From positions 124,001-188,000 of the forward strand of contig NZ_JACIBT010000002.1 of the NCBI RefSeq assembly GCF_014195445.1: a stretch of DNA of 64,000 bases, written 5' to 3'. Shown piece after piece: positions 3,573-35,296 of the stretch. Under the pieces are notes generated by a model that was not told the origin of the DNA, made no database searches, and worked only from the letters and a program-made list of their open reading frames with translations. The position numbers were made by a program, and so were the translations under genes. Position 1 is the stretch's first letter. Every line of letters starts with the position of its first letter. Source of the DNA: Garicola koreensis. GTDB taxonomy: Bacteria; Actinomycetota; Actinomycetes; Actinomycetales; Micrococcaceae.

Positions 3573-3635
3573 AATTCCTCATGGCGCCTGCGCCGCAAAT
3601 TGATGAGGTCCAACACCACTGTGAGGTCTATCCCG

Positions 3636-5210
3636 ATGTCCAGTCCCACTGCCGAAGCGGTTTCCCGCCTGGCGGCCGATACTGCGGCCAAGTACAGCAC
3701 TGACACCATCGTGCTGCTGGGCAAGGGGCCCTCAGCCGATCAGGTGCATTCCAGGGTGTTCAGCGACGCGGTGGTCATCGGGGTCAACGACGCCGAACGC
3801 ATCCACCCCACCGACATCACCATCTTCTATGAGGACTGGGTGGGGGAGTCGGTCGCCGAGGATGGGCTGCGCTCGGCGGCCTATGTGACCTCCACCAGCT
3901 TTGACGCGCCGGACCGACAGGTGGTGCGGCTGCCGTTCAGGCCCATCGCCAACGACGCCGAAGACCAGGTGCTGCTGCGCTTCCAGGACCGCAGCGAGGT
4001 CGCCATCGAAGAGGCCATGTTCCTCACCGCCTTGGAGATCGCCCGCGCGGTGGCCGACCACCGCGGCCGGGTCCAGCAGGTCTACATGGTCGGTTTCGAC
4101 TTCACCCCCGAGGCCGGTGAGGCCCGGGCCGCCTCCTCGCAGTACAGCCCGGAGCTGTCCTCGCGCCGGCGGGCGGGCATCGAGCTGCAGGAGTTCATCC
4201 TGCAGAACGCGCTGTACACGCTGAAGGACACCAACTTAGATGTCCAGCACGTGGGCACCTTGGCCTACTCCGATCTGACCACTGACCTGCTCAACGAGAA
4301 GTTCCACGTGGAGGTCAAGGAACCGATCGCCCCCCAGCCGGTGGATGACGACGACGTCGAGGTCCCCCCCGTGGAAGTCACCGCGGAGATCACGACCAAC
4401 CACTTCGGTGACCTGGACCGGCTGGAGAAGCTGGTCCACGCCGCCCAGGCGGCCGGTGCGGACTGGGTCAAGGTCCAAAAGCGCGACGTCGACACCTTCT
4501 ACACCTCGCAGCAGCTGGCCTCACCCTATAAGTCGCCCTTCGGCAGCACGTTCGGCGACTACCGCCGCCAGCTGGAGCTGGACAAGGAGGGCTTCCTGTT
4601 CCTGGATGAGCTGACCAAGGACCTGGGGATCAGGTGGTTCGCCTCGGTGCTGGACAAGCCGTCGTTCGAGTGGATGACCGGGGAACTCGACGTGCCGCTG
4701 GTGAAGCTGCCCTCCACTATTTCGGAGAAGCGGGACTACCTGAGCTATGTGGCGGAGAACTACACCGGCTCGGTGGTGATCTCCACCGGCATGACCGATA
4801 CCGCCTACGAGCACTGGCTGCTTCAGACCTTCACCGAGCAGGAAGCGCTGTATCTGCTGCACTGCAACTCCGCCTACCCCACCCCGGACGAGCACACCAA
4901 CATCGGGGTGGTCCGGCACTACGCCCAGCTGGCTGCCCAGCAGAACGGCAAGCCCGGTCCCCGGATTGTGCCGGGTTACTCCAGTCACGACTACGGGTGG
5001 ATGGCCTCCGCGTTGGCGGTGGCTGCGGGTGCTCAGATGGTGGAGAAGCATGTGAAGCTCGGCAACACCGAGTGGGCCCACTTCGACGCCGTCGCCGTGG
5101 ATCTGACCACTGATGCCTTCACCCAATACGTCGACGCCGTCCGCCGCGCCCAACTGCACGTGGGCTCATCCCAGAAGAAGATCACCGCTTCGGAGCATCA
5201 CAAGTACTAG
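3636..5210 (+). CDS. NeuB-family ulosonic (sialic) acid synthase with N-terminal Rossmann-like domain
   Basis: The C-terminal part (about residues 250-524) is a NeuB-type synthase, which condenses phosphoenolpyruvate with a hexose or ManNAc-type aldose to give a nine-carbon 2-keto-3-deoxy acid. Visible landmarks are AEITTNHFGD, GADWVKVQKRD, VVISTGMTD, LHCNSAYPTPDEHTNI, GYSSHDYG (usually GYSDHxxG) and VEKHVKL. No C-terminal SAF antifreeze-like domain is present. The N-terminal part (about 25-215) has IVLLGKGPSADQV, VVIGVNDAERIHPTDI and VYMVGFDF, resembling the MptE/DUF115-like domain of flagellin-glycosylation Maf proteins. The ATG at 3636 has GAGG 9 bases upstream; a TTG at 3600 is possible. 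The substrate cannot be read from sequence. GC is high, unlike the block immediately downstream. Confidence 0.85.
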   Translation: MSSPTAEAVSRLAADTAAKYSTDTIVLLGKGPSADQVHSRVFSDAVVIGVNDAERIHPTDITIFYEDWVGESVAEDGLRSAAYVTSTSFDAPDRQVVRLPFRPIANDAEDQVLLRFQDRSEVAIEEAMFLTALEIARAVADHRGRVQQVYMVGFDFTPEAGEARAASSQYSPELSSRRRAGIELQEFILQNALYTLKDTNLDVQHVGTLAYSDLTTDLLNEKFHVEVKEPIAPQPVDDDDVEVPPVEVTAEITTNHFGDLDRLEKLVHAAQAAGADWVKVQKRDVDTFYTSQQLASPYKSPFGSTFGDYRRQLELDKEGFLFLDELTKDLGIRWFASVLDKPSFEWMTGELDVPLVKLPSTISEKRDYLSYVAENYTGSVVISTGMTDTAYEHWLLQTFTEQEALYLLHCNSAYPTPDEHTNIGVVRHYAQLAAQQNGKPGPRIVPGYSSHDYGWMASALAVAAGAQMVEKHVKLGNTEWAHFDAVAVDLTTDAFTQYVDAVRRAQLHVGSSQKKITASEHHKY

Positions 5211-10213: not shown

Positions 10214-13200
10214 ATGACAATGATTCTTAAGACGACCAAGTTCGGCGCGAACAGGGTTAGCGGCTGGTGTTCCCAACCTTCAGGCACGGACCAGCAACCG
10301 ATAGTTGAGCTGCGAGTCGATGGTGACATGCTCGCCCAGACTGTTGCGGATCTATCGTTGAACGAGGTGGACCCGGATACTACTAGCAAGCAGCGAGTCG
10401 GATTCGCGTTCGATCTTCCCGCTACCCTGCGGGACGGTATGCCACACCACGTGGAAGTGCGCGAGACGTCGCAGTTCACTCGCGAGAGTAAGGTTGTTGA
10501 GCCCCCCAATTCCGTGGTCTCTGACGAGGAGAATCTCTTTGGCGAGTACCACGGCTTCGACCGCGGCATGGTTATTGGTTGGGCCTGTAAGAGTAACCAG
10601 ACGGTCACGCCCGAGGTGCGCGTCGATGGGACGAGGGTTGCCGTCGAGCCGCTATCCGACGCCGTCAACAGTCTTCGCGCGCGTCATGGGTTCGGTGCTG
10701 TGATCTCGCCCAAGTTCTACGATGGCGAGGAGCATCTCGTAGAGGTCTTGCTTCCGGGACAAGCGGGGGAGTACCACTTGTTGTCTCAGGAGACTCTGAG
10801 GTTTTCCCCTGACTTGAAGAACGTTCAGTGGTGGCGTCGGGCGACGAATCAATACGAGGACATCATCGTGGATTCGCTGCACCTCACAAACGCCGAAGCC
10901 GTCCTTACCCTAGTCGGAGAAGTCCGGCACAAGCGGGTGGCCCTGCGCTTAGGGTATCGACGGTTCGTCATGGATCTCGTCTCTCCCCCTGCCTCGGGGG
11001 AAGGGAAGACTCGAGCTTTGGGACAATACGCAGTCCAGTTCCACAAAGAAGCTAAGCTTCCGTCGTCGTTGGAGTTGTACAACGCTGGGGGATCTCTGAA
11101 GCGAAGTTTCGACGTCAGGCTCGGCGATGAAACCGGGCGCAGACCCAGTTATCTTCCCCAGACTTTGGCGGTCAAGAGTCAGGCCGTCGTCGGCGGCCGC
11201 AACGAGTTACTACCGACACTCAATTACTGGGCGCAAGAAATTCGACGAGAGGGTCGGCCCCGCCTGGCGTGGTTCTCTTCTCTCGCTCGGGAGACCCAGT
11301 CCCTGGAGGCCAGAGACGTACTAGCTTTGGTTGCCTCCGGAGGGAGCCACGACTACGACTCACTCATGGAGACGCTAGAACTGAGCCGCTTGAGGAGTTC
11401 CGACTGGGGAATTCGCGAAGCACTGGGGAAGAGGGTGTGGTTGCCGGGACTGTTCACTCTGGCCCAGGTTATTTACAGCCAGCGGCTGAACCAGCAGGAC
11501 TTCAACGACGTCTACGCGATCTATGAGTCCGTCGAACACGCATATGGGCGGGATGCCTTCAACAACGGGGTCGACCGTTCCTACTATGCTGACCTGCTGA
11601 CCCAACGTGGATTCACGGATAAAGCCTGCGATCTCCTGGCCTACGAAGAGAGCAATCAGGACCGCGCCTACTCACAGCGTTTCCTTGAGTTTAATGCCTT
11701 TAACCCGCACACGCCGGGGAACTCTGAGGCCCAGAATGATCAGTGGTTCGCCGGGGTGAACCAGCTCTACGATCGAGAGGGGTTCTCCGGCCTGGCATCC
11801 CAAGACGGTCGAGCGCCCGATTTTTTCAGCCTGCAAGGTGAGAGCGTTGCTAGCTCCGCGGATTCGTCGTTGCCTTTGGTGACGGTCATCATGCCGATCT
11901 ATGAACCCAATGCTGCTACGGACGTCGCCATTGGCTCGTTGCTAGAGCAGACTTGGAGCAACCTAGAGATCATCATTATCGATGACGCTTCCCCAGAGGT
12001 CGATGAGTCCGGTGACCCCACCCCGTACCGGCAACAGTTACAAGGCTGGGCCGCGAAGGACGAGCGAATCAGGCTGGTTCTGTGTGAAGAGAACCGCGGA
12101 GCATATTCTGTGCGCAACGAGGCCTTCGGTATGGCTCAGGGTGAGTTTGTCACCATCGCGGACAAGGACGACTGGCACCATCCACAGCGTATCCAGTTCC
12201 AAGCTCGCGACCTTATGGCGAACTCGGGCAAGCACGGCAACATCGTGAATTGGGTGCGGGTGGACGAGCAGCTGCAGTTTCAGATCCGTTGGGGTCCCGA
12301 CAGAATCGTGCACCCCAGCTTTGCCTGCATCATGTTCCGTCGTCGGGAGGTCCTGGAGAAGCTGGGCGTCTGGGACCCGGTACGAAAATCCGCAGACAAT
12401 GAATACCGCAAGCGCTTCGAGATGGTCTTCGGGCAGAAACTCAAACCCGCGGTGAACGCCCCCCTCGCCTTCTCTCTTCTGGGGGAGGGTAATCTCACCA
12501 GCTCCGACTTCGGGCTGGGTTACCGCCACCCGGATCGAGAGGTGTATCAGTGGGCCTACTCCCATTGGCATGACCAGATTCAGAAGGGCCGGAGTCCGCA
12601 GTTGTCAGGAGAGGCTCGGGAGTTCTATTCGCCACCGGCTTTCCGGCCGGACCGCAACAAGGACGACGTCCCGCATTTCGATGTGGTCTACATTTCGGAG
12701 TTGGGTCTCCTTGGGGGTCCTGCCTTGGCCGCCAAGCGAGAGATCGAAACGGCTGTCGCCGCGGGGCTGAAAGTTGCGATCATGCCTCTGCAAAACGGGC
12801 TGCACATGGCGGCAGCCAAGCGACGTCTGGCTCCAGAAATCGAAGAACTCTGGCTCTCAGGTAGTGCAGAGTGGATAACCTGGAACAGCGCAGCCACAGC
12901 AGACCTGGTGGTGTTGAGCTGGCCAGGGCTCATGGAACTCAGACCAGGGTCCGACGTCGGGCTGCAACCCTCAGCGGTGACCATTGTTGCCAACCAGTTG
13001 CCAGCCTCGCTCGGCTCCCGGGGCCGCAACTTCAGCGTCCAGCGGGTCACACGAAACGTTGAGAAAACCTTCGGGGTTTTCCCAACCTGGGCGGCACAGA
13101 GCCCCGTGGTGCAGGAGGCTCTGCGGGAACTGCTCAGCACAGACGACGTCCGGAATGCCCTCTGGCTGACTCCCTCGACGGGCCACACGGATTACGTCGG

Positions 13201-13738
13201 CAGGAAGCCAGAGAACCGCGACCGCGCGGTGATCGGTCGTGTCCTGGATGAGGATGAGAGCCACTGGCCTGAGCCGGCGGTCATCCGGGATGCTTACCCG
13301 GAGGACCCGGCATTCGAAGTCTCTATCCTGAGTAGAGTTCGAACACTTGAGAGCCGCGGAATATTAAGAGGGAGGAGTGTCCCGACCAACTGGACTATCT
13401 TGCCACCAGACTTCCAATCGTATGACGACTACTTGCGGTCACTAGACTTCCTGGTCCACTATGGGAACGAACCCTGGGACCCGCATACCGACGGTAGCGT
13501 CGTTCGCGCTTTGGAACTTGGGGTGGTTTGCGTTCTGCACCCCGTCTTTAAGCCCGTCTACGGCGACGCCGCGGTGTATGTTGCCCCAGGCGAGATTCGG
13601 GACACGCTTCACTCCATGTGGGGCCTCCCGGAGAAGATGCGAGAACAACGCAAGCGCGGACAAGCCTATGTCAAGGGAAGCCGAACCGCGAGACACTACG
13701 TACGCCTTCTACGAGGGCAGTCAACCTCGGGCGGTTAG
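10214..13738 (+). CDS. Very large multidomain glycosyltransferase (GT2 plus C-terminal GT-B-like domain)
   Basis: A 1174-residue protein. Residues 1-220 form two beta-rich repeats (VELRVDGDMLAQTV and later PEVRVDGTRVAVEP) that look like carbohydrate-associated modules. A helical middle leads to a GT-A family 2 domain from about 553 (VTVIMPIYEPN, IIIIDDASPE, IADKDDWHHP). From about 821 a C-terminal GT-B-like domain follows (VVYISELGLLGG, then LDFLVHYGNEPWDPHTDG and a VVRALELGVVCV segment like family 4 transferases). A bifunctional polymer-extending enzyme is plausible. The same GT2 plus C-terminal architecture recurs in the gene at 29.4-31.9 kb, so the two are probably paralogous. GC is back to high values here. 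Confidence 0.85.
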   Translation: MTMILKTTKFGANRVSGWCSQPSGTDQQPIVELRVDGDMLAQTVADLSLNEVDPDTTSKQRVGFAFDLPATLRDGMPHHVEVRETSQFTRESKVVEPPNSVVSDEENLFGEYHGFDRGMVIGWACKSNQTVTPEVRVDGTRVAVEPLSDAVNSLRARHGFGAVISPKFYDGEEHLVEVLLPGQAGEYHLLSQETLRFSPDLKNVQWWRRATNQYEDIIVDSLHLTNAEAVLTLVGEVRHKRVALRLGYRRFVMDLVSPPASGEGKTRALGQYAVQFHKEAKLPSSLELYNAGGSLKRSFDVRLGDETGRRPSYLPQTLAVKSQAVVGGRNELLPTLNYWAQEIRREGRPRLAWFSSLARETQSLEARDVLALVASGGSHDYDSLMETLELSRLRSSDWGIREALGKRVWLPGLFTLAQVIYSQRLNQQDFNDVYAIYESVEHAYGRDAFNNGVDRSYYADLLTQRGFTDKACDLLAYEESNQDRAYSQRFLEFNAFNPHTPGNSEAQNDQWFAGVNQLYDREGFSGLASQDGRAPDFFSLQGESVASSADSSLPLVTVIMPIYEPNAATDVAIGSLLEQTWSNLEIIIIDDASPEVDESGDPTPYRQQLQGWAAKDERIRLVLCEENRGAYSVRNEAFGMAQGEFVTIADKDDWHHPQRIQFQARDLMANSGKHGNIVNWVRVDEQLQFQIRWGPDRIVHPSFACIMFRRREVLEKLGVWDPVRKSADNEYRKRFEMVFGQKLKPAVNAPLAFSLLGEGNLTSSDFGLGYRHPDREVYQWAYSHWHDQIQKGRSPQLSGEAREFYSPPAFRPDRNKDDVPHFDVVYISELGLLGGPALAAKREIETAVAAGLKVAIMPLQNGLHMAAAKRRLAPEIEELWLSGSAEWITWNSAATADLVVLSWPGLMELRPGSDVGLQPSAVTIVANQLPASLGSRGRNFSVQRVTRNVEKTFGVFPTWAAQSPVVQEALRELLSTDDVRNALWLTPSTGHTDYVGRKPENRDRAVIGRVLDEDESHWPEPAVIRDAYPEDPAFEVSILSRVRTLESRGILRGRSVPTNWTILPPDFQSYDDYLRSLDFLVHYGNEPWDPHTDGSVVRALELGVVCVLHPVFKPVYGDAAVYVAPGEIRDTLHSMWGLPEKMREQRKRGQAYVKGSRTARHYVRLLRGQSTSGG

Positions 13739-21637: not shown

Positions 21638-22993
21638 GTGAGAGAGTCCCAGACTATGTCACCGCAGGTAATCGGATTGAGGAAATGGTCCCCGTCACGA
21701 CTGGAAGATGTCTTAGGGGCCCAGGAAGTGGTTGCTTTAGAACGATACGCCACAAAGAAGCAACGCAACGGAGAGATCTTGGCGTTGGCACACCGGAGCA
21801 TGGCACATGATCCTCAACCATTCATCCATCCACTCTCGGGAAAGCGCGCGGGATGTTACGACTCATTTAGTCATGACGACGTTTACAACATTCTCGGATT
21901 CACCGACGGCGCTGAGCCCTTCTTCGTGATCCAGCGCGTATCGTCCATGGAAGCCTTTTACTTCCCCGAGAGAGACTTGGTGCTTAGTTTCAGGTTGCCG
22001 CAAGACCATTTCGACGAGCTATTCCAGAAGGTCGATTTGGCAGGACGTGACTTTTCGACGCGCCGCCGGTTTGCCGGTTTCATCGCCTCCCACCATCGGC
22101 CTTATCACTACTTCTATGATGCTCTGCCCGCTATGCGGGATATCGACCTTGGCTGGGAGGGGGATCGGAACACCAAGCGAGCTCTCGAGTTAGTCCAGCT
22201 TCAAGGCGGTGATTACCTGCCGGTCAACGTTCTGTTCCCTGATTACTTCTGTTATACTACTTCATCGCGGTTCTTAAACCACCACACCGTGCTGCGGGGA
22301 AAGTACTACCTGAAGGTGGGTTACGCCGGACTCAAGGATAGGGCCCAAGAGCGGAGCATCAACCAGTTCGATCGTTCGATCAACCTATCGCGCATTGTTC
22401 GGGACGATGAAAGTCGGTGTCCAGCTGGCCTGGGGCTGCTGACCCTTGCATTCGACATTTCCAACGAAAAGGGCACCTGGAGGTCTATCGAACAAGATAT
22501 CCCGAAGATCGTGCAGCATGTCGCCCAAGCTACGGGTTCCGACATTCACGTCATCTTCGATGGATGGACCCTTCCACACACCCCGAGCTCTAGGGACATG
22601 CGAAGGGTCACCGAGGAACGACGCCTGGCGGAGAGCATCGAAAACCGGCTGGAACATTCGGCTACCAAGGTGGATCACTTAGTGGGCGCGAACCCGCGGG
22701 ACAAGCTCGAAAACCTGGCAGGGGTGGACGCATTTGTATCCCGGTACGGCACGGGCTCGATGTTCGTGTCGCGGATTCTTGGTCGGCCTGGCGTAGTACA
22801 TCACAGTGGTCTAGCCAACTACGAAGACATCCACATGCAGGGGGGCGAAGTCACGACAGTTTTGGGGAGGCCCGCTTACGACAGTTCGAATATCAAAGTG
22901 CACTCGATTCCGTATGATGTCCACTGGCGAGATGTCGCTTCGGCACTCGTGACGCTTCTTCGTAACAAGTGGAAGACACAGACAGTGGACTGA
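21638..22993 (+). CDS. Unrecognised polysaccharide-locus protein, paralogue A (possible GT-B-type transferase)
   Basis: A 451-residue protein with no family I can name. It shares long conserved stretches with the gene at 24.9-26.3 kb: SHHRPYHYFYDALPAM, LAFDISNEKGTW with DIPKIVQHV, a segment around FDGWTLPHTPSSRD, and RYGTGSMFVSRILGRPG followed by HSGLANYEDIHMQGG. The last block resembles the C-terminal donor-binding half of GT-B glycosyltransferases, so a transferase is possible, but this is inference. There is no signal peptide. GTG 21638 is the listed start; ATG 21656 has a better-spaced GAGAGAG. The IS110 element lies between the two paralogues. Confidence 0.7.
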   Translation: MRESQTMSPQVIGLRKWSPSRLEDVLGAQEVVALERYATKKQRNGEILALAHRSMAHDPQPFIHPLSGKRAGCYDSFSHDDVYNILGFTDGAEPFFVIQRVSSMEAFYFPERDLVLSFRLPQDHFDELFQKVDLAGRDFSTRRRFAGFIASHHRPYHYFYDALPAMRDIDLGWEGDRNTKRALELVQLQGGDYLPVNVLFPDYFCYTTSSRFLNHHTVLRGKYYLKVGYAGLKDRAQERSINQFDRSINLSRIVRDDESRCPAGLGLLTLAFDISNEKGTWRSIEQDIPKIVQHVAQATGSDIHVIFDGWTLPHTPSSRDMRRVTEERRLAESIENRLEHSATKVDHLVGANPRDKLENLAGVDAFVSRYGTGSMFVSRILGRPGVVHHSGLANYEDIHMQGGEVTTVLGRPAYDSSNIKVHSIPYDVHWRDVASALVTLLRNKWKTQTVD

Positions 22994-23059
22994 ATCGTGG
23001 TAAGTCGCCGTGGCTAAGTGGGCGGTGATCCTGATAGACGATGAGTTTGTTTGAAGCGG

Positions 23060-23373
23060 GCTGGAAGTGATGAAGGACTGGTGGCTCTTCACTATTGATG
23101 GTGTGGACCGGTTGGTCTGACTCCTTAAGGGATGTGGCGGCCCACGGCTCTGGGCCATGATGGTGTAGTGGCCGGGTCTGACTCACGGCTCTTCTGACGC
23201 CACCTGCTGGTGGTTGTCCTTCCTCCGACGTGTCGATTGGCCGGGCTCACAGTACAGTGCAGCCCGGCGGGGCCGTCATGTCCTGATAGGAGTCTGGCGA
23301 AGTCCCCGATAGTGAACTGACTGGCGCCCATGCCGAGCTGCGTACCCCCACTACGCAGGAAGGGCACAGTCCC
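23060..23373 (+). ncRNA. Candidate bridge-RNA region of the IS110 element
   Basis: About 300 bp of non-coding sequence precede the transposase. In characterised IS110-group elements (IS621) this position encodes the bridge RNA that pairs with target and donor DNA. The stretch contains several potential stems, for example GGCCCACGGCTCTGGGCC at 23133-23150 and GCCGGGCTC...CAGCCCGGC around 23239-23261. The exact RNA ends and loops cannot be defined by eye. Confidence 0.35.
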
Positions 23374-24441
23374 ATGGTTACTGAAACCCAGACTCTGGTC
23401 TACGGCGGGATCGATGCCCACGCCGATACTCATCACGTGGCCGTCGTCGATCACCTCGGCACCGCCCTGGATGACCTCCAGGTCCCCGCAACCTCTGCGG
23501 GTTACCGCGCGGCGCTAGGGTTCTTGAATCGATGGCCCCAACTGGGTGCTGTCGGCATCGAATGCACCGGCTCCTACGGGGCCGGGGTTACCCGAGCTGC
23601 ACGGGAAGCTGGTCTGGATGTCGTAGAGGTCAACCGGCCCAACCGCTTCGATCGACGCCTGCAGGGTAAGATCGACACCTTCGATGCCTACGCTGCTGCC
23701 GAGGCGGTCCTCTCCGGACGGGCCAACGCCGCCCCCAAAGGCGGCGACGGACTGGTCGAGTCCCTCCGGGTGCTGCGCACCAGCAGGTCCTCGGCCTTGA
23801 GCGCCAGGACAGCGACGACTAATCAGATCAAGGCGATGCTGATCTCCGGGTCCGAACAGTTACGTTCACGCTACCGTGGGCTGTCGAACACCAAACTAAT
23901 GACCGCGCTGGCGGCTTCCCGGCCCACCCGCGGCCCGGTGAGCGCTGAAGAGGCCTCGGCCTACAGCCTGAGGCTACTGGCCAGGCGATGGAAACATCTC
24001 ACCGAACAGATCGAGGATCTTGGCCGGCATATGCAACGGCTCCTGGATGATCACACCCCTGAGCTGATGCAGGTCTTCGGTGTCGGGCGTGACACGGCCG
24101 CACAGCTGTTGATCACCGCCGGCGATAACCCAGCCAGGCTGCGTTCCGAGGCCACTTTCGCTGCCCTGACCGGCGCTTGTCCGATCCCAGCCACCTCGGG
24201 CAAGACCAACCGACACCGGCTGAACCGAGCTGGCGACCGGCAAGCCAACTCTGCGCTGTATCACGTGGTGATCGTCCGCATCCGCTACGACCAGAGCACA
24301 TGAGACTACGTTGAACGTCAAACCGCAGAGGGCAAAACCAAAATGGAGATCATCCGTTGCTTGAAACGCTACCTCGTCCGCCAGCTCTACCCCATCATCT
24401 GCCGATCCCTGACCGGCAGAACCCTCGCCCCAAACACTTGA
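23374..24441 (+). pseudogene. IS110-family transposase with in-frame TGA
   Basis: The N-terminal RuvC-like DEDD domain is intact: Asp in YGGIDAHADTHHVAVVD, Glu in GIECTGSYGAG and two Asp in KIDTFDAYAAAEA. The C-terminal Tnp domain follows (VFGVGRDTAAQLLITAGD, then FAALTGACPIPATSGKTNRH). The frame stops at TGA 24301-24303 after RYDQST but then continues in the same frame with DYVERQTAEGKTKMEIIRCL to a normal C-terminus ending at 24441. Related transposases usually have Arg at the stop position, so CGA to TGA is the likely change. The 309-residue product lacks the last 46 residues; activity is uncertain. Confidence 0.85.
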
Positions 24442-24485
24442 CATTTATCCATAGGAGTGTCGGACCTGGGTGGCGCGTAGCGAGA

Positions 24486-24604
24486 GTTGGAAGCGGTAGT
24501 CTGCGTTGTTGATGTGTTATCTCGGCACATCGTGGACATTGGATCTCAGCACTTCGTGCACATCGGGTCTCATGGCTTCAACAACGCAGACTACTGCTTC
24601 CAAC
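24486..24604. repeat. 119-bp element bounded by 27-bp inverted repeats
   Basis: Positions 24486-24512 and 24578-24604 are inverted copies matching at 26 of 27 bases (core AGTCTGCGTTGTTGA against TCAACAACGCAGACT). The 65-bp interior holds two imperfect direct repeats, TCTCGGCACATCGTGGACAT and TCTCAGCACTTCGTGCACAT. This is the form of a MITE or solo insertion-sequence end pair, or of a transcript folding into a long hairpin. It lies directly after the IS110 right end. Confidence 0.75.
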
Positions 24605-24944
24605 TAAGGCTATCCGTCACTGGGGTGGGGCTGGCGACTCGCGGAGGATCTTGAGTAGAGCAGGAAGATGGGGTCGGGGCCCCGATGATGTGCAGCGAGG
24701 AACACGTGATGCTCGCCGTGCAAGGACAGTCAGAAGGACTTCAGGCAACAGCCTGACGAACTAAGCAAGTGTCCGCGACTTGCGGACAAGGCCAAGCTCA
24801 GGGTGCCCACAATTGGCGGCTATGTTGATGACCTCTCCTAAATCAGCTCAACCGCTGGGCGTGGGCGGTGCCTCACCATATGAGAGATAGGTTATAGTAC
24901 TCTCAGCGTGCCAGCCTTCGTAGCATGCAGGGAGAATTAAGCAC
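24605..24944. other. Intergenic region with short palindromes
   Basis: No gene is supported over these 340 bp. Short palindromic stretches are present (GTCCGCGACTTGCGGAC near 24770 and TTCAGGCAACAGCCTGA near 24739). The sequence may be further mobile-element debris. A promoter for the next gene may lie around 24880-24910 (ATAGGTTATAGTACT), but it is weak. Confidence 0.35.
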
Positions 24945-26264
24945 GTGACCAAAAGCACTGTCCTGAACGTTAGACGCCGGTTCAGGTCCAAACTACAGGA
25001 CCACTGTACGTCCCAAGAGCTCGACGTTTTCGAACAGTATGTCGGTGGTGCCCGCCAGGACAGACTAATGATGGAGTTCGCCCGTGCATGCCGTACGGAG
25101 CGCGAGCCCAAGTTAACCCACCCCTTCACCGGCGAACGAGTGGCGTGTTGGTTTTCCTGCTCCATGGATGACCGCTACAACCTCTTGGGGTTTTGGGATG
25201 GGAACGACCCGTTCTACGTGATCCAACGCGTGTCATTCGTCGATGCGCTCTATTTCCCTCGGCGGCGCCTTCTACTCGGCTTTCGGCACATCACCTACTT
25301 TATGCTTGAGAAGCTAGCTGAGCGCATCGAACACGAGGCGGCGTTCCCCTCCACGCGGCGCCAATTCAAAGGATTCGTCGTTTCTCACCACCGGCCATAT
25401 CACTTTTTTTATGAGGTCGGCCCCGCGTTGTGGGAACACGTTCGCCAGGTGAGCGATAAAGAGGGTTCAGCGCCGGCAGAGATAGTTCAACTCCATGGCG
25501 GTGAGTATTTTCCGCTGGAGCGACTGGTGTCAAACCGTACCATCTACAGCACAAACTCTGCCTATCTCAATCACGTCACTGGTCTCCTGGGTACGTTCTA
25601 CGTGAAGTTAGGATACTCCGGGTATCCTGAAAGTGATCTTGATGGAATCCTCGAGCGGTTCGACGAGCGAGTCAGGGGTTCGTTGAGCTCGCTGCCGAAG
25701 TCTAGGAGGGAGAAAAACACTACCTCCCTTGCATTTGACATTTCCACGGCCCGCGGTACCTGGGCCACGCTGGACGAGGATATACCCAAGGTCGTGAATG
25801 CCGTCGCAGAAGTTCGAGGGGGCCCAGTTCGCGTTTATCTTGATGGTTGGACCCTGTCTTTGACACCTAATGACCTCGATCTGCGGCACATGAACGGTGA
25901 ACTGCAGCTTGCTCAGCAGATGGCCGCCGCCATGCAAGATACCGTTGACGTCACAGTGCTCGTCGGTGCCTCCCCCGTGATCAAGCTTGAGGCCTTTTCT
26001 GCACTAGACGCCTTCGTAACGCGATCTGGGACCGGGTCCATGCTGGTCTCTCGGGTGCTGAATAAGCCCGGCATAGTCCACGGCAGCGGCCTATCCGATT
26101 ACGAAGAGATCCATAAACAAGGCGACGACGTTGAATTTATGTTTGGCGACAGCTCTCGCCATAAAGCGGAAAATGAAAGCTTGCGGAAAATTTCATATGA
26201 CCTCGACTGGAAGGATGTTGCAGACCGGCTTATCCGACTGCTTCCAGCCTCCGCTCAGAGGTGA
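24945..26264 (+). CDS. Unrecognised polysaccharide-locus protein, paralogue B (possible GT-B-type transferase)
   Basis: A 439-residue protein clearly homologous over its whole length to the gene at 21.6-23.0 kb. Shared blocks include SHHRPYHFFYEVGPALW, LAFDISTARGTWATL with DIPKVVNAV, YLDGWTLSLTPNDLDLR, and DAFVTRSGTGSMLVSRVLNK with GIVHGSGLSDYEEIHKQG. Roughly half the residues match in these blocks by eye. It starts with GTG (MTKSTVL) and GGGAG lies about 11 bases upstream. It precedes the aldolase gene by about 95 bp in the same direction, so it may belong to the ulosonic-acid operon. Function unknown; a glycosyltransferase is my best guess. Confidence 0.7.
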   Translation: MTKSTVLNVRRRFRSKLQDHCTSQELDVFEQYVGGARQDRLMMEFARACRTEREPKLTHPFTGERVACWFSCSMDDRYNLLGFWDGNDPFYVIQRVSFVDALYFPRRRLLLGFRHITYFMLEKLAERIEHEAAFPSTRRQFKGFVVSHHRPYHFFYEVGPALWEHVRQVSDKEGSAPAEIVQLHGGEYFPLERLVSNRTIYSTNSAYLNHVTGLLGTFYVKLGYSGYPESDLDGILERFDERVRGSLSSLPKSRREKNTTSLAFDISTARGTWATLDEDIPKVVNAVAEVRGGPVRVYLDGWTLSLTPNDLDLRHMNGELQLAQQMAAAMQDTVDVTVLVGASPVIKLEAFSALDAFVTRSGTGSMLVSRVLNKPGIVHGSGLSDYEEIHKQGDDVEFMFGDSSRHKAENESLRKISYDLDWKDVADRLIRLLPASAQR

Positions 26265-26359: not shown

Positions 26360-27961
26360 ATGATTTTTCTTGATTGCACTCTGCGGGACGGTGGGTATTA
26401 CAACGCCTGGGACTTCCCTGAGGCGCTGGTACTCGACTACCTGGACGCCATGAAGCACAGCGGCGTGGACGCAGTGGAACTCGGCCTCAGGTCTTTGAAG
26501 ACGACAGGCTTCGCGGGAGCCTCCGCTTACACTACTGATGACTACCTGCGTGGCTTGCCCTTGCCCACCGGACTAATGGTAGGTGTGATGGTTAATGCTG
26601 CCGAATTGGTCGGCGACACACCACGCGAAGAGGTACTGGAGAGGCTGTTCCCGGCGTCAGCGGAGGATTCCCCAGTAGACTTGGTGCGCATCGCCAGCCA
26701 CGTGCACGAGTTTGAGCAGGCTTTACCCGCGGTGAACTGGCTCAAAACCAAGGGATACAAGGTTGGGTTCAACCTCATGCAGGTCGCCGACCGCAGCGAA
26801 CGCGAAGTCAAGGAGCTGGCCCGCAAAGCCACTCAATGCCCCATGGACGCACTGTATTTTGCGGACAGTTTCGGAAGTATGTCCCCGGACCAGGCCGCTC
26901 AGATCATCCAATGGATGCGCAGCGAATGGGACGGCCCCCTAGGCATCCACACCCACGAGAACATGGGGCTCGCACTGTCCAACGTGCTACGCGCGATAGA
27001 TGAAGGTGTGACGTGGGTGGATGCCACGGTGACAGGTATGGGTCGCGGGCCAGGCAACGCGAAGACCGAAGAAGTTGCAATCGAGATGGCCGCGCTGCGT
27101 GGCCAGCAGCCCAACTTGGTGCCTCTGATGTCGTTGATTCGTAAGCACTTCAAACCGATGCAAAAGCGTCACGGATGGGGCAAGAACCCCTATTACTACT
27201 TGGCGGGCAAGTACGGAATCCATCCCACGTATATCCAGACCATGCTCTCCGACTCACGCTACGACGAGGAAGACGTGCTCTCGGTCATCAACCACCTGCG
27301 CAGCGAAGGTGGTAAGAAGTACAACGCCACCACGCTTGAGAATGCCCGGCACTTTTACGGCAAGGCGCCCCGCGGGTCTTGGAGACCGACAGAACGGTTC
27401 AGCGGCAGGGAGGTTCTGGTGCTAGGTGCAGGGCCCGCTGTCCATGACCATCAACATGCCATTGAAAGTTTCATCCGACGGCGGCAACCCCTCGTGGTGG
27501 CGCTGAACACCCAATCCAGCGTGTCAGCTGACCTCATCGACCTGCGTGTCGCCTCTCACCCGGTACGTCTGTTGGCGGACAGCGCCAAACATGCAGAGCT
27601 GCCTCAGCCCCTGGTGGCGCCGGTATCCATGCTTCCTGACGAAGTACGGGAAACTTTGGACGGCCAAGAGGTCCTAGATTTCGGGCTCTCCGTCGACACG
27701 GCGGAGCACGTGAGCTTTGGCGAAACGCACTGCGTGATGCCCAGTGCGCTGGTCATCGGCTACGCACTGGCCCTGGCCACGTCGGGAAGCGCCGAGCGGA
27801 TCTTATTAGCTGGGTTCGACGGCTACGGCGCCGGAGACCCCCGCGACCAAGAGATGCAAAGCCTTATCGAGGCCTACCAAGCTCACGCCGACTCTCTACC
27901 TTTAACCGCCATCACGCCCACCCACTACGGCGTCCACACCGAGTCTGTGTACGCTCTGTAA
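26360..27961 (+). CDS. HMGL-type aldolase fused to C-terminal Rossmann-like domain
   Basis: Residues 1-300 are a TIM-barrel of the HMG-CoA-lyase/4-hydroxy-2-oxovalerate-aldolase family: metal-binding DCTLRDGGYYN at 5-15, FADSFGSMSPDQA, HTHENMGLALSN near 197 and ATVTGMGRGPGNAKTEEV. Such enzymes make or cleave 2-keto-4-hydroxy acids with pyruvate. Residues about 350-533 form a second domain (VLVLGAGPAVHDH, LVVALNTQSSVSADLIDLR, ILLAGFDGYGAGDPRDQEM) that resembles the N-terminal domain of the NeuB fusion at 3.6 kb. With kdsB and a HAD phosphatase directly downstream, it probably makes a 3-deoxy-ulosonic acid precursor; this is inference. The ATG at 26360 lacks a strong ribosome-binding site. Confidence 0.85.
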   Translation: MIFLDCTLRDGGYYNAWDFPEALVLDYLDAMKHSGVDAVELGLRSLKTTGFAGASAYTTDDYLRGLPLPTGLMVGVMVNAAELVGDTPREEVLERLFPASAEDSPVDLVRIASHVHEFEQALPAVNWLKTKGYKVGFNLMQVADRSEREVKELARKATQCPMDALYFADSFGSMSPDQAAQIIQWMRSEWDGPLGIHTHENMGLALSNVLRAIDEGVTWVDATVTGMGRGPGNAKTEEVAIEMAALRGQQPNLVPLMSLIRKHFKPMQKRHGWGKNPYYYLAGKYGIHPTYIQTMLSDSRYDEEDVLSVINHLRSEGGKKYNATTLENARHFYGKAPRGSWRPTERFSGREVLVLGAGPAVHDHQHAIESFIRRRQPLVVALNTQSSVSADLIDLRVASHPVRLLADSAKHAELPQPLVAPVSMLPDEVRETLDGQEVLDFGLSVDTAEHVSFGETHCVMPSALVIGYALALATSGSAERILLAGFDGYGAGDPRDQEMQSLIEAYQAHADSLPLTAITPTHYGVHTESVYAL

Positions 27962-27994: not shown

Positions 27995-28735
27995 TTGCGC
28001 AGTGTTGTTGTGATTCCGGCCCGGTACGCCTCCAGCAGGTATCCCGGTAAACCGCTGGTGCCATTACTGGGTAAACCTATGGTGTTATGGGTCGCAGAGC
28101 TCTCCGCGGAAGCGGTCGGGGCAGAGAACGTGTATGTCGCCACCGAAGACCAGCGCATCGCCGAGACCGTCGAGGACGCCGGGTGCAATGCCGTACTCAC
28201 CAGTGATGACAACCTGACCGGCACTGATCGGCTGGCAGAGGCCGCGCAAAGCGTGGAGGCCGATATCTACATCAATGTACAAGGCGATGAGCCGCTGGTT
28301 TTCCCGCCGGATATTCTGAAAGTGCGTGATGAAAAAACCCGGCATCCTGAACAGGTCGTCAACGGCTTCAGCTGGATCTCGGAGAACGAAGACCCACACA
28401 GCGTAAACATACCCAAGGTCATATCCACCGAAGACAACACAATGATCTACATGTCCCGGGCGCTTCTGCCAGGGCACAAGGATGCCAAGAACGCACCTGC
28501 ACGGTATAAGAAGCAAGTCTGTATTTATGCCTTCAGCCGAGAGGAACTGACTGCGTTTAGGGAATTCGGTCGCAAGAGCGAACTCGAACGCAGCGAGGAC
28601 ATCGAAATCTTACGATTCCTGGAACTCGGTAAGTCGATCCGGCTGGTGGAAACGCGACCTGGCAGCCTGGCGGTGGACGTACCCGAAGATGCCCCCAAAG
28701 CAGAAGCAGCGCTGAAGGCCGCTGGCAAAGCCTGA
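27995..28735 (+). CDS. KdsB-like CMP-ulosonate cytidylyltransferase
   Basis: A 246-residue homologue of 3-deoxy-manno-octulosonate cytidylyltransferase, which activates a keto-deoxy acid sugar as CMP-sugar. Visible signatures are VVIPARYASSRYPGKPL (CTP-binding loop), VYVATEDQRI, TSDDNLTGTDRLAEAA, the metal-binding YINVQGDEPLV, and SRALLPG with YKKQVCIYAFSREEL. TTG at 27995 is well supported by AAGTGAGG upstream. It is 33 bp after the aldolase and 2 bp before the HAD gene. KdsB is typical of Gram-negative LPS, so a homologue here implies a Kdo- or Kdn-like sugar in a Gram-positive surface polymer. The exact sugar cannot be deduced. Confidence 0.9.
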   Translation: MRSVVVIPARYASSRYPGKPLVPLLGKPMVLWVAELSAEAVGAENVYVATEDQRIAETVEDAGCNAVLTSDDNLTGTDRLAEAAQSVEADIYINVQGDEPLVFPPDILKVRDEKTRHPEQVVNGFSWISENEDPHSVNIPKVISTEDNTMIYMSRALLPGHKDAKNAPARYKKQVCIYAFSREELTAFREFGRKSELERSEDIEILRFLELGKSIRLVETRPGSLAVDVPEDAPKAEAALKAAGKA

Positions 28736-28737
28736 AT

Positions 28738-29406
28738 ATGCAACGAACCATGCAGGACTACGCGACGCTGGTCTTCGACTGCGACGGCGTCGTGCTCAAT
28801 TCCAACCGGATCAAGACAGAAGCCTTCTATGAGACCGCACTTCCCTACGGGGAGGACGCCGCGCAGCGTCTGGTGGACTTCCACGTCAACAACGGCGGTA
28901 TCTCACGGTATAAGAAGTTTGCGCTGTTTCTCGAGGACATGACAGACCGCCGAGAGGGGCCCAGCCTCAAGCAGCTGCTTCAAAACTATGCAGCACTGGT
29001 GCACGAAGGTCTCATGACCTGCGAGATCACCCCGGGTCTCGATGCGCTCCGCAACGCTACAGTGAATGCGCGCTGGCTGATCGTCTCCGGGGGAGACCAG
29101 GAGGAACTGAGGGAGGTCTTCGCCGCCCGGGGGATCGATAAGCACTTCGATGGCGGAATACTCGGCAGTCCCGATACCAAGGACGAAATCCTGGCCCGCG
29201 AGGCAAGCGCCGAAAATCTCCCCACGCCCGCGCTGTTCTTGGGGGACAGCACTTACGACCACAGAGCCGCGACCACAGCGGGTCTGGACTTCATCTTCGT
29301 CTCCGGATGGACCGAAATCTCTGGGTGGGAAGACTGGACCCGGGAGAAGGGCATCGTCAGCATCCACAGCATCCAAGACGCGATGCGGGGTGACAGTGAG
29401 CACTGA
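28738..29406 (+). CDS. HAD-superfamily phosphatase
   Basis: A 222-residue haloacid-dehalogenase-type hydrolase. Motif I is VFDCDGVVLNSN (nucleophile and acid/base Asp), motif II WLIVSGGDQEEL (Ser), motif III lysine in SPDTKDEIL and motif IV FLGDSTYDHRAA. A helical cap follows motif I. Immediately downstream of the KdsB homologue (2-bp gap), it is the natural candidate to remove phosphate from an ulosonic-acid phosphate, the job of KdsC or Kdn-9-phosphate phosphatase, though it belongs to a different HAD branch. Its end overlaps the start region of the next glycosyltransferase. Confidence 0.85.
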   Translation: MQRTMQDYATLVFDCDGVVLNSNRIKTEAFYETALPYGEDAAQRLVDFHVNNGGISRYKKFALFLEDMTDRREGPSLKQLLQNYAALVHEGLMTCEITPGLDALRNATVNARWLIVSGGDQEELREVFAARGIDKHFDGGILGSPDTKDEILAREASAENLPTPALFLGDSTYDHRAATTAGLDFIFVSGWTEISGWEDWTREKGIVSIHSIQDAMRGDSEH

Positions 29407-31891
29407 CATGGCCGACTGGCAAGCGATCTTCCGCACGCGCCTGCTGCAACTCTACAGCAAGGATGCCGGGCTCGTCGGAGCCGAAGTTGAACGCACAGCC
29501 TTACGCAGCGAATCGGTGCACATGCGAGAGCTGCTTGCCTACGAGGCCAGCCACGGGACCCTGACATTCGACGAGCTTCACACCAAGATTCTGCAGGGCA
29601 CGCTCTCCGTCTACTCTATCGACCCAACGGCGTTGGCACGGCTGGCAGAGGCGGTGGCACTCCAAGACGTCCGGACGGGCGACACGCTTTTTGCAACCCG
29701 AGCGCTTGAACTTGTGCTGGATAACGCGACTGGCAGTGGACGGCGATTCGGTAAGCTGTTGGCCGAGTTGTACTTTGAGCAGCGGCTCTTCACAGAGCTG
29801 GACGACCTGCTCGTCCAACGGCCCGATACAGGAAGCCACTTCTATTCCTACATTGCGGCAGACGCGCGCAACCCATTCATTCGGAATGATCTCGATGGCC
29901 GAGCCCACGCGACATGGCTGGACCGGTTCAATAGGCAGTTTGTGCTTAACGACCTCACTCCGATCAGGCTGCGCAGAGGCGATGATGTGCCGTTCAACCG
30001 CCTGACTACAGCGCCAACCATTGGTCCGCAGCCCCAGGGGCCACTTGTCACGGTGATCATGACCAGCTTCAAGCCCGAGAGAACGGACTTGATCCAGTCG
30101 GCCCGTTCCATCCTGGAACAGAGCTGGCGCAACCTGGAGCTGTTGGTCGTCGACGACGCGTCACCGGCTGAATACTCACCGGTGCTCGATGAGATTGAAG
30201 GCCTGGACGCACGCGCCCGGGTGATTCGACTTGATGTCAACGGCGGGACCTACGCCGCCCGAAATGTGGGCATCACGCACGCCGCCGGTGAGTTCATCAC
30301 CGGCCAGGACGCCGATGACTGGTCCCACCCGCAGCGCATCCAGACGCAGGTGACCCACTTGATGCGCAACCCGCACCAGCCCGGAAACCAGGTTTACACA
30401 GTCAATATGACCGAAGATCTGGTGCGCATCCGCCGTGGATACAGCCCCTTCATCCCCTCTGCGCCAACGCTGATGGCCCGTACCACTATCATGCGAGAGC
30501 TTGGTGGGTACATCCCGGCGCGTAAAGCCAGCGACAACGAGTTGCGTGACCGGATATCGGCCTACTCCGGCAGTACGGTCTACCAGATCTCCGAGCCGCT
30601 AATCTTCATGCGCATCCTCCCGAACTCTCTCTCGCGCTCAGATTTTCGGCCTGGATGGCAGCATCCTGCGCGGCGCGCCTTCTGGAGCAGCTACCGGAGT
30701 TGGCACTCCACTGCCACGCCGAGCGACCTGCGCCGGGCGGCCCATACCCAGGACCCCATATATATCCCCCCGCGGTTCACTTCGCCGCCGGAGAAAACTG
30801 AAGAACTCGACGTCGTCTTCACCGCAGATTGGTGCGACTACGGGCACACCCAGGCGATGGCTTTAGAAGAGATCCGGGAACTGATTCGGGCCGGCTACCG
30901 CGTAGGTGTCCTGCATCTAGAGAGCCCGATTCACATATCGCAATATGCACGCACCTACGCTCAACCGATCCAGAGAATGATATCCAGCGGCGAGGTCTCC
31001 CATCTTATCTGGGACGAGACCTTCTACACCGTGAAGCTCATGCTCGTTCGGACACCCGAGCTGCTCCAATTCATGCCCCACGGGAGGGTAGGTTTTACTG
31101 TTGAGCAGCTCGCGGTGGTCGCCGATAAGCCAGCATGGGTGGCCCACGACTTTCTAGTTCATTACATCCCGGCGGATTGCTCCCGCCACGCCGAGGAGTT
31201 CTTCGGGCGCAGGCCAGTGTGGGTGCCCGACTCCACCGCCGTTCGCAGGCAGCTCGGTGACCTCGTCGACGCTGCCGAGCTTGCTGGCTGCGACTATGTC
31301 ACCGCCTTCGACCCAAGCGCGTGGTCAACCAGACGTCGGGGGCCACGAAACACCAAGCCAGTCATGGGGCGGTGGGCCGGGGAAACCGCCGCCCTCTGGC
31401 CGGACGCTCGAGGAGCCATCGAGCAGATTTGGCCGACCGACGGGCGCGCCGACGTTCGCTTTTACGGAGACCAGGACATGCTGCTGCGAGTAATAGGGCA
31501 GAAGCGGCTCCCGTCGGCATGGCTGAGCTTCAAACAGAATGAGATCAGCCGCCGTACGTACTACCGGTCCCTGGACTTCTTTGTCCATTATCCGCAGCAG
31601 CGCGCGGCCGCCGTCGTCGAACATTCCGTCCTTGAAGCCCTAGCTGCTGGATGTATAGCTGTGCTGCCCACTTGGATGCGCCCTATCTATGGAGAAGCCG
31701 CACTCTATGCGGCCCCAGAAGAGGTCTGGAACACCATTGAGCAGTACACTCAGGATGCCGATAAGTATCTCAAACAATCGCGGCGCGGCGTGGAGTTCGC
31801 CAGCACCTGGCACTCTGACGGATATCGTGAACTCATGGACTCGCTCATGGCCACCGGCCGCCCGACCACACAGGAGAGAACACCACGGTGA
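29396..31891 (+). CDS. Multidomain glycosyltransferase, GT2 plus C-terminal GT-B-like domain
   Basis: An 831-residue protein if it starts at GTG 29396, which has GGGG 7 bases upstream and overlaps the HAD gene; ATG 29408 is the alternative. After a helical N-terminus, a family 2 GT-A domain starts near 217 (VTVIMTSFKPERTDLIQSAR, LLVVDDASPAEYSP, TGQDADDWSHP). From about 471 the second domain follows (VVFTADWCDYGHTQAMALEE) and ends with SLDFFVHYPQQRAAAVVEHS and VLEALAAGCIAVLP, a GT-B donor-site pattern. The architecture matches the gene at 10.2-13.7 kb. It probably transfers the ulosonic or another sugar made upstream. It is GTGA-coupled to the next gene. Confidence 0.85.
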   Translation: MSTDMADWQAIFRTRLLQLYSKDAGLVGAEVERTALRSESVHMRELLAYEASHGTLTFDELHTKILQGTLSVYSIDPTALARLAEAVALQDVRTGDTLFATRALELVLDNATGSGRRFGKLLAELYFEQRLFTELDDLLVQRPDTGSHFYSYIAADARNPFIRNDLDGRAHATWLDRFNRQFVLNDLTPIRLRRGDDVPFNRLTTAPTIGPQPQGPLVTVIMTSFKPERTDLIQSARSILEQSWRNLELLVVDDASPAEYSPVLDEIEGLDARARVIRLDVNGGTYAARNVGITHAAGEFITGQDADDWSHPQRIQTQVTHLMRNPHQPGNQVYTVNMTEDLVRIRRGYSPFIPSAPTLMARTTIMRELGGYIPARKASDNELRDRISAYSGSTVYQISEPLIFMRILPNSLSRSDFRPGWQHPARRAFWSSYRSWHSTATPSDLRRAAHTQDPIYIPPRFTSPPEKTEELDVVFTADWCDYGHTQAMALEEIRELIRAGYRVGVLHLESPIHISQYARTYAQPIQRMISSGEVSHLIWDETFYTVKLMLVRTPELLQFMPHGRVGFTVEQLAVVADKPAWVAHDFLVHYIPADCSRHAEEFFGRRPVWVPDSTAVRRQLGDLVDAAELAGCDYVTAFDPSAWSTRRRGPRNTKPVMGRWAGETAALWPDARGAIEQIWPTDGRADVRFYGDQDMLLRVIGQKRLPSAWLSFKQNEISRRTYYRSLDFFVHYPQQRAAAVVEHSVLEALAAGCIAVLPTWMRPIYGEAALYAAPEEVWNTIEQYTQDADKYLKQSRRGVEFASTWHSDGYRELMDSLMATGRPTTQERTPR

Positions 31892-34702: not shown

Positions 34703-35296
34703 TTGCGGGTTCACACGTCGCTTGATGTCCCGGTGGTGCCGAGGGCTGCGGTCATGCTCTCGCGGTGGGCTATTGAGCTGTCGCAGATGACCGATGCGCC
34801 GTTCGTGCGAGTCGACCTCTATGACACCGACGAGGGGCCTGCTTTCGGCGAGTTCACGTTCTCATCCGGGGCAGAGTACAAACGCACCATCACCTACAGC
34901 GAAGAAACCCTCGACTATTTCGACCGGCTGTTCGCAGACGCGCAGAAGACGCTCAGCGGCGAGGCGGTCGAGCGGCCGCACACCTGGAGCACGTTGCTGC
35001 AGGCAACCGACCCCGACATTCTGGCGTCACACCCACAGATCAGTCTGGCCGAGTACGAGCGCTACGCCTACTACCTCTACAATCAGGGCAGCCTCGGTGG
35101 GTTCCGGCTGGCCGAAGCGCAGCAGCGACTGGCGCAGAGCGGCGTTGACCCCGAGATCAACCGATACCTGGTGGACGCTCACACCGCGGCACGACGACGG
35201 GTGCTGGCGCAGAACCAGCCCGCCCAGCCCCGCTCTCACCCCCAGCTCACGCTGCCTCAGGCCGTGCGAAAGGTGTACCGGCGGCTCACTCGGTAG
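34703..35296 (+). pseudogene. TupA-like ATP-grasp, truncated duplicate lacking the N-terminal half
   Basis: From VPVVPRAAVMLSRWAIELSQ (34727) to the end this frame matches residues about 200-380 of the gene at 32.3 kb almost segment for segment (FVRVDLYDTDEGPAFGEFTF, ERYAYYLYNQGSLGGFRLAE). The ATP-binding N-terminal half is missing; the first eight residues are unrelated. It is therefore the back half of a duplicated gene, cut where the minus-strand ATP-grasp gene ends. A GTG at 34703 could give a 197-residue product retaining only the metal-binding lobe. It is probably not an active ligase. Confidence 0.8.

Follow-up and report, generated by a model that had tools for sequence, protein, structure and literature searches.

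The paralogous genes P0001 and P0002, carried by a 64,000-nucleotide stretch of the Garicola koreensis genome (contig NZ_JACIBT010000002.1, positions 124,001 to 188,000; hereafter the window), encode members of a protein family whose predicted fold is that of GT-B glycosyltransferases, and whose genes lie close to those for the synthesis of ulosonates activated with cytidine monophosphate (CMP). We give about an even chance to the reading in which these proteins represent a new GT-B family that transfers the CMP-ulosonate made by a neighboring gene cassette into a surface polysaccharide or a wall glycopolymer. Paralogy, the predicted fold, conserved residues and genetic linkage were computed here, and it is from these that we infer all reactions, the donor, and the roles of individual residues. 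The pair is arranged as follows:

21638..22993, + strand: P0001, family member 1, 451 residues; open reading frame (ORF) with no convincing Pfam, NCBIfam or PDB-sequence match
23374..24303, + strand: IS110-family transposase between the paralogues, outside the system (PF01548, 1.6e-23; PF02371, 8.6e-17)
24945..26264, + strand: P0002, family member 2, 439 residues, predicted GT-B glycosyltransferase (AlphaFold2 model and fold matches)

The first-pass annotation of this DNA had described a paralogous pair of 451 and 439 residues flanking an IS110 element, and both ORFs are present, with the IS110 domains between them. Aligned end to end, P0001 and P0002 are identical at 171 of 440 positions (39%, with 60% similarity; 317 bits, E 5e-109), which excludes a chance likeness. 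The three shared blocks that had been reported were also found, namely SHHRPYH(Y/F)FY, LAFDIS..(K/R)GTW and GTGSM(F/L)VSR(I/V)L...SGL.(N/D)YE(D/E)IH; the accompanying estimate that roughly half of the residues are identical is fair within the blocks and too high for the whole proteins. Both copies in Nesterenkonia pannonica, the closest relative in a scan of species genomes, are 48-54% identical to P0001 and 34-45% identical to P0002, indicating that P0002 is the diverged copy, and that the window and N. pannonica have two copies per locus. The N. pannonica copies are frameshifted, and since the aldolase and GT2 genes of the same region are frameshifted too, assembly errors seem likelier than decay. 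Comparison with locus L011 suggests that P0001 may start at an in-frame ATG at codon 7 (21656). The genome to which the window belongs amounts to 2.25 Mb in 27 contigs, and is 80% complete. An inverted repeat (43 nt, 84% complementary, with a 65-nt gap) at 24470-24620, between the IS110 ORF and P0002, is possibly another insertion remnant.

The inability of the first-pass annotation to place the pair in a named family holds for 18 members: a Pfam scan (E up to 10, HMMER filters on) yielded no convincing family among them, PF04577, the heptosyltransferase family and the epimerase families each being found in 0 of 18. At the same threshold P0001 matched 0 Pfam families and P0002 matched DUF5060 alone (E 0.021; 15.5 bits, where the cut-off is 27.2), which was judged to be chance. 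The same judgment was made of the single NCBIfam match of P0002 (E 0.13; P0001 had none, and only these two proteins were searched), of the best PDB-sequence matches of the pair (E 0.11 and 0.78), and of a designed helical protein recovered at E 0.0096 by a profile search of PDB sequences. PHROGs returned single-member matches (best E 0.049), one scan of viral contigs with a two-sequence profile gave no relative, and the Escherichia coli homologue described below had no match in phage records.

Linkage to CMP-ulosonate synthesis

Three genes downstream of P0002 form a cassette that could provide an activated ulosonate:

26360..27961, + strand: HMGL/DmpG-type aldolase with a barrel at about residues 1-300 and a C-terminal Maf/MptE/GT29-like domain; candidate ulosonate synthase (PF00682, 7e-27)
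27995..28735, + strand: KdsB-like CMP-ulosonate synthetase (PF02348, 9.6e-36)
28738..29406, + strand: HAD-family phosphatase, candidate ulosonate-phosphate phosphatase (PF00702, 3.2e-9; PF13419, 1.8e-8)

The aldolase matches the 4-hydroxy-2-oxovalerate aldolase model NF006049 at 1.4e-30, with 106.5 bits, under the cut-off of 229. The synthetase reaches the KdsB subfamily models NF009905 (267 bits, cut-off 255) and NF003952 (226 bits, cut-off 193), and fails the KdsB equivalog models NF003948 and TIGR00466 of NCBIfam.

The association with cytidylyltransferase genes was counted in 18 genomes, picked by presence of the family and not of the cassette, in which 25 family rows were merged by coordinates into 22 stretches (with pieces in genomes G848 and G931). 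A PF02348 gene is located within 10 kb of 21 of the 22 stretches, within 5 kb of 18 and within 3 kb of 14, in agreement with the co-occurrence with KdsB-type genes that the first-pass annotation had proposed to look for. The TupA-like partner proposed alongside did not recur: the TupA-like query of the window (13983-15020) is not among the three best matches of any ORF in the 17 loci outside the window, at E up to 1e-3. Genes encoding GT2 glycosyltransferases (PF00535) served as controls, and among the best 150 of 162 matches 21 lie within 10 kb of a PF02348 gene, 15 within 5 kb and 9 within 3 kb. For the 117 controls that are on other contigs or over 30 kb away from the family, the counts fall to 2, 2 and 1, respectively (Fisher p 7e-17 at 5 kb, a value that overstates the case owing to genome kinship and short contigs), and where such distant GT2 genes cluster with another GT2 gene, 0 of 40 are near PF02348. 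The family is tightly linked to CMP-ulosonate synthesis, and this evidence is strong.

The composition of the cassettes was inspected in 21 loci with query genes from the window and L010 (the window, L009-L012, L014-L025 and L068-L071, where L019 and L025 share one contig and L071, from genome G862, is a weak match with E 2.9e-4 over 110 residues). In 20 of the 21 loci there is a CMP-ulosonate-type cassette, defined as a synthase plus a cytidylyltransferase, and it takes two forms: one with an HMGL-type aldolase, a cytidylyltransferase and a HAD phosphatase, the other with NeuB, a cytidylyltransferase and an inositol-monophosphatase-like phosphatase. Both should yield a CMP-activated ulosonate. 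The HMGL-type aldolase and cytidylyltransferase are present in 14 loci, 12 of which include the HAD phosphatase (the window, L012, L016-L018, L021, L023, L025 and L068-L071); L011 gave no HAD match, and the contig of L024 ends inside the cytidylyltransferase. NeuB, inositol-monophosphatase-like and NeuA-like genes occur together in five loci (L009, L010, L014, L015 and L019), and L022 combines the NeuB set with a truncated HMGL gene. ORF ends overlap in the cassettes of L017, L018, L022, L024, L025 and L069. The window and N. pannonica also carry NeuB, approximately 16 kb and 11 kb, respectively, upstream of the first family gene.

The two forms appear to be exchangeable. In a tree of 20 members, which has a number of long branches and leaves 9 of its 17 inner ones unresolved, L012 (HMGL) and L014 (NeuB) are sisters with support 100/100 and different cassette types, which suggests that the family follows what the cassettes share, a CMP-activated ulosonate, rather than one synthase. 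A second pair of sisters is L022 and L068 (100/99): the aldolase of L068 is complete (10573-12177), while the L022 reading frame at 11104-12057 matches only its residues 1-301, with 91% DNA identity over 912 bases, and is followed by inositol-monophosphatase-like, NeuB and NeuA genes, so that this Halomonas-type locus may have been caught part-way through cassette exchange. Cassette type is partly clustered on the tree: all types together need 6 changes, compared with an average of 8.1 after shuffling (5 of 200 shuffles went as low), HMGL alone needs 6 compared with 6.8 (176 of 500), and NeuB alone 4 compared with 5.3 (65 of 500), a figure that may overstate switching in that L022 was labeled NeuB despite its HMGL barrel; L012/L014 is the clean case. 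In addition, on a Sulfurimonas contig the HMGL aldolase is fused to a CTP_transf_3 cytidylyltransferase (L024:5836-7839, an ORF that runs into the contig end), which ties this aldolase to a CMP-activated product. The loci could tentatively be viewed, at somewhat below even chance, as an exchangeable ulosonic-acid module, where either the HMGL/DmpG-type aldolase or NeuB, each with a Maf/GT29-like domain, its own phosphatase and a CMP-synthetase, serves the same new family of GT-B ulosonate transferases across Actinomycetota, Pseudomonadota and Campylobacterota.

Further genes of the window that bear on these loci are the following:

3600..5210, + strand: NeuB-family synthase (PF03102, 1.9e-39, residues 278-526), with an N-terminal domain that in alignment resembles the C-terminal domain of the aldolase
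10214..13738, + strand: GT2-containing protein of 1174 residues (PF00535, 3.8e-19; 60% identity to L011 over 1006 columns)
29150..31891, + strand: GT2-containing glycosyltransferase downstream of the cassette (PF00535, 8.8e-21)

The N. pannonica homologue of the 1174-residue protein lies directly 5' of a family member, and the L011 homologue of the second GT2-containing protein is downstream of KdsB and a family copy. The coordinates of the latter gene are those of its longest ORF, and its true start is probably later because of the overlap with the HAD gene. By eye, an IS21-like ORF pair (an ATPase-like protein of 244 residues and a transposase-like one of 518) was also seen at 16004-18291, between the TupA-like and ATP-grasp genes, as was a close likeness between the C-terminal sequences of a TupA-like protein (32336-33508) and the ORF at 34703-35296, which suggests a partial duplication.

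Predicted fold and conserved residues

The AlphaFold2 model of P0002, built from an alignment of 18 rows, has a mean predicted local distance difference test score (pLDDT) of 86.4 and a predicted template modeling score (pTM) of 0.86. Its highest VIA-align scores are to heptosyltransferase II (1psw; Z 15.5 over 256 residues, with a root mean square deviation (rmsd) of 4.1 A), a GT9 protein (Z 14.2, 261 residues) and WaaC (Z 14.0, 244 residues), with further matches to POMGNT2 (Z 11.8 over 276 residues, spanning model residues 37-437), to the 2-epimerase of uridine diphosphate N-acetylglucosamine (UDP-GlcNAc; Z 11.4, 237 residues), and to WaaA, the transferase of 3-deoxy-D-manno-oct-2-ulosonic acid (Kdo; Z 11.0, 231 residues, rmsd 6.0). 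A Z of at least 8 was reached by 313 of 999 chains, and the best 50 listed are mostly GT-B enzymes; the best Foldseek match is POMGNT2 (E 3.5e-5, TM-score 0.34). Residues 1-137 of P0002 are barely covered by fold matches. Since many independent GT-B matches cover both domains, the predicted fold of the family can firmly be called GT-B, and the resemblance to GT9 heptosyltransferases and to the GT61 enzyme POMGNT2 is in line with the GT-B donor site guessed at from one sequence block. The earlier suggestion of a new glycosyltransferase family is thereby borne out as regards the predicted fold and the lack of a Pfam match, while glycosyl transfer itself is what we infer from fold and neighborhood.

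Conservation was counted over 15 full-length rows, leaving out three L011 fragments, and all 15 agree at N79, Q94, R150, P151, Y152, H153, Y156, D300, G301, T303 and K347. The family has an invariant signature of its own, RPYHxxY, DGxT and K347. In the P0002 model R150-H153 begin the helix that succeeds strand 140-146, D300-T303 come after strand 295-300, and a TGS loop (363-365) comes after strand 356-360; these positions are the usual acceptor and donor faces of GT-B enzymes. A QXXXD motif is not conserved, as it was found in the C-terminal half of only 3 of 15 rows (P0002, L018 and L022), at places that do not align.

Proposed role and competing explanations

If the family does transfer ulosonates, the pathway would begin with the formation of a 3-deoxy-ulosonate, probably phosphorylated, either by the HMGL-type aldolase joining pyruvate and a sugar aldehyde, or by NeuB using phosphoenolpyruvate. 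The HAD or inositol-monophosphatase-like enzyme would take off the phosphate, and the KdsB/NeuA-like enzyme would generate the CMP-ulosonate. The C-terminal domain of the GT-B enzyme could hold this donor by means of the TGS loop after the fourth strand, DGxT and K347, with the acceptor located near the RPYHxxYD helix of the N-terminal domain, and the ulosonate would be added to the growing surface polysaccharide or wall glycopolymer. The two paralogues might serve two linkages or two ulosonates, the latter option being raised by the presence of NeuB in the loci of the window and N. pannonica. To our knowledge, a pyruvate-dependent HMGL/DmpG-type aldolase is not known as a source of polysaccharide ulosonates.

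A number of observations weigh against this assignment. Those GT2 genes that are no more than 30 kb away from the family, counted by subtraction, are themselves near PF02348 in 19 of 33 cases at 10 kb, 13 at 5 kb and 8 at 3 kb; genes of the same loci thus share the linkage in part, although less closely, and linkage alone does not single out the family gene, nor can it separate an ulosonate donor from an ulosonate acceptor. The 18 genomes do not count as independent, several being related, and where assemblies are fragmented the neighbors of control genes are hidden. The Rhodobaculum member (L020) has no cassette on its contig, and is the only member without a cytidylyltransferase there. As for the structure, Foldseek TM-scores are low (0.28-0.39 in the first 18 rows; 0.34-0.39 by query length), four respiratory-complex chains appear at VIA Z 11.6-12.3, within the first 14 rows (three of them from Tetrahymena complexes, with rmsd 4.4-7.5 A), and the best structural matches are enzymes that use adenosine diphosphate (ADP)-heptose or UDP-GlcNAc; a GT-B fold does not in itself indicate the donor. 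The synthase-fused domain could itself be the ulosonate transferase, and is the main alternative candidate. Finally, a search of C-terminal halves located (K/R)XHP in 0 of 15 rows, and a bare HP in 4 of 15 (L012, and L016-L018 near H390). The excerpted text of a recent report gives (K/R)XHP as conserved in the CMP-sugar transferase families GT29, GT38, GT42, GT52, GT80, GT99 and GT107 (PMC12887879).

The synthase-fused domain is central to an explanation in which the GT-B family adds another sugar onto the ulosonate, while the Maf/GT29-like domain carried by the HMGL and NeuB synthases transfers the ulosonate itself. The model of the last 194 residues of the aldolase (approximately 340-533 of 26360-27961; pLDDT 85.5, pTM 0.86) matches the Maf glycosyltransferase at VIA Z 11.8, with 173 of 194 residues aligned, and GT29-type sialyltransferases, which use CMP, at 6.9-7.8, and a domain of similar look occupies the N-terminal 250 or so residues of NeuB (3600-5210), at the opposite end from that of the aldolase; the missing (K/R)XHP motif and the partial linkage of same-locus GT2 genes also fit. 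However, SteA (Z 11.7) and archaeal HPPK (Z 11.1), neither of which is a glycosyltransferase, match the domain nearly as well and are ranked first by Foldseek, and hhalign, with E 0.017 and a probability of 2.7%, does not establish significant homology of the HMGL domain to that of NeuB. The Pfam MptE-like family was matched by 2 of 13 members, at E 0.018 at best. A transferase fused to a sugar synthase would, in addition, be unusual, and we consider this explanation rather unlikely, although it is the strongest competitor. Were the two domains homologous, this would be a striking case of one domain fused in parallel to ulosonate synthases of two kinds.

The fold comparisons also bear on an explanation in which the family belongs to GT61 or GT9 as a highly divergent offshoot and uses ordinary UDP- or ADP-sugar donors, so that the ulosonate linkage would reflect polymer type only. 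The closest folds are indeed POMGNT2 (GT61) and the heptosyltransferases (GT9), and in a weak, collinear hhalign alignment the GTGS stretch falls on a part of GT61 that contains glycine. Nevertheless, a comparison with 32 bacterial GT61 proteins by hhalign fell short of significance (E 0.15, probability 0.4%), PF04577 is missing from all 18 members, and GT2 genes outside these loci do not have the linkage (2/117), which makes this explanation improbable. Equally low is the standing of a GT-B-fold protein that is not a transferase, such as a NeuC-like epimerase or hydrolase making the aldose precursor for the ulosonate synthase. Non-hydrolysing UDP-GlcNAc 2-epimerases and NeuC share the fold and are listed at VIA Z 10.1-11.4; on the other hand, an epimerase Pfam match occurs in 0 of 18 members, the family accompanies two synthases that would perhaps need different precursors, and three long proteins encoded in polysaccharide loci have the family domain fused after DUF6270 (PF19786) (L016:9161-12895, L017:9044-11203 and L018:9002-12685). 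The C-terminal 500 or so residues of the L016 and L018 proteins have no convincing Pfam match (best E 0.038).

Distribution and comparison with known systems

The family is rare. Among 147 relatives, matches were confined to the window's genome and one congener, and when genomes were sampled evenly, 396 from the phylum and 396 from the order, the window's genome alone matched. A scan with a profile of four sequences, covering 84,980 species genomes, gave 15 loci, in N. pannonica, in Pseudomonadota and in Campylobacterota, plus the contig L012/L013, which is filed under both 'Flavobacteriia' and Roseobacter titles with the same match and layout (L013 was dropped). In the family of the Halomonas member L017, 6 of 151 genomes match, 2 of which were already known. 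Because the scan demands an exact short pattern, the true number of members is probably higher. The Rhodobaculum member (L020:9632-11143) has a TPR at its C-terminus, and its gene is next to one for a polysaccharide pyruvyl transferase.

A tblastn search of plasmids detected distant homologues on Enterobacter and E. coli plasmids (23% and 22% identity, E 3e-15 and 2e-14); a third match (E 1) falls within an annotated helicase gene. Each of the two homologues belongs to a capsule locus of the ABC-transporter type and immediately precedes cytidylyltransferase, inositol-monophosphatase-like and NeuB-like genes, and the 20 kb inspected at the E. coli plasmid locus contain no KpsC. In 3 of 5,426 E. 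coli genomes 80% or more of the E. coli gene is present, and the 5 places found are all on plasmids. The proposal that the family is confined to polymer loci like that of the window was thus too narrow, as there are also members in polysaccharide loci of proteobacteria and Campylobacterota, and on two capsule plasmids of enterobacteria. Group 3B capsules of E. coli borne on plasmids have been described (PMC13171606, PMC10433991), and are the likely setting of the E. coli member; the excerpted texts of these descriptions do not name the family protein. In the capsule typing work most K-specific ORFs were given functions, according to its excerpted text (PMC13171606), and the E. coli member may already have been labeled there as a glycosyltransferase.

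If the family does join ulosonates, the combination of RPYHxxY, DGxT and the cassette would allow ulosonate polymers to be predicted from genomes, including those of Gram-positive bacteria and of plasmid-borne E. coli capsules, and the possible aldolase route to CMP-ulosonates would become directly testable. Capsules and certain wall polymers of actinobacteria owe important acidic residues to ulosonic acids, such as Kdo, 3-deoxy-D-glycero-D-galacto-non-2-ulosonic acid (Kdn) and sialic-acid-like sugars. The excerpted text of one report gives Kdn-containing teichulosonic acids as known from Streptomyces walls (PMC11481543), and the titles and opening abstract lines of the open-access literature contain no report of teichulosonic acid in Nesterenkonia and no description of the family or of an HMGL-type ulosonate route. 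Enzymes that join ulosonates are still turning up family by family, GT140 having been described in 2026 (PMC12887879, excerpted text).

The retaining beta-Kdo transferases GT99 (WbbB), GT107 (KpsC) and GT140 (KrkA) have the GT-B fold and a place in polysaccharide biosynthesis in common with the present family, for which a CMP-ulosonate donor is only proposed here. In the excerpted account, the three use the QXXXD nucleophile, the HP motif for CMP has Ser in place of K/R in KrkA, and KrkA has no sequence similarity to WbbB and KpsC (PMC12887879). The family, unlike these enzymes, lacks both (K/R)XHP (0 of 15) and a conserved QXXXD, and its best listed fold matches are GT9 and GT61; GT99, GT107 and GT140 are not among the best 50 listed by Foldseek and VIA, too short a listing to exclude likeness. 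The GT61 enzyme POMGNT2, whose donor is UDP-GlcNAc, has a similar fold, heading the Foldseek matches and aligning in VIA over nearly the whole model; membership of GT61 is not supported by the Pfam and hhalign results given above. The GT9 heptosyltransferases, including WaaC and heptosyltransferase II, reach the highest VIA scores (Z 13.3-15.5 over 244-261 residues), but with 8-13% identity, no Pfam match, and alignments to the lipopolysaccharide heptosyltransferases that begin at residue 141, leaving the N-terminal part unmatched. A parallel in logic is offered by the Kdo pathway, which proceeds from KdsA through KdsC and KdsB to WaaA or KpsC: the succession of synthase, phosphatase, cytidylyltransferase and transferase is the same, and the cytidylyltransferase of the cassette is KdsB-like, whereas the synthase is HMGL-type or NeuB instead of KdsA, and the candidate transferase belongs to another GT-B family.

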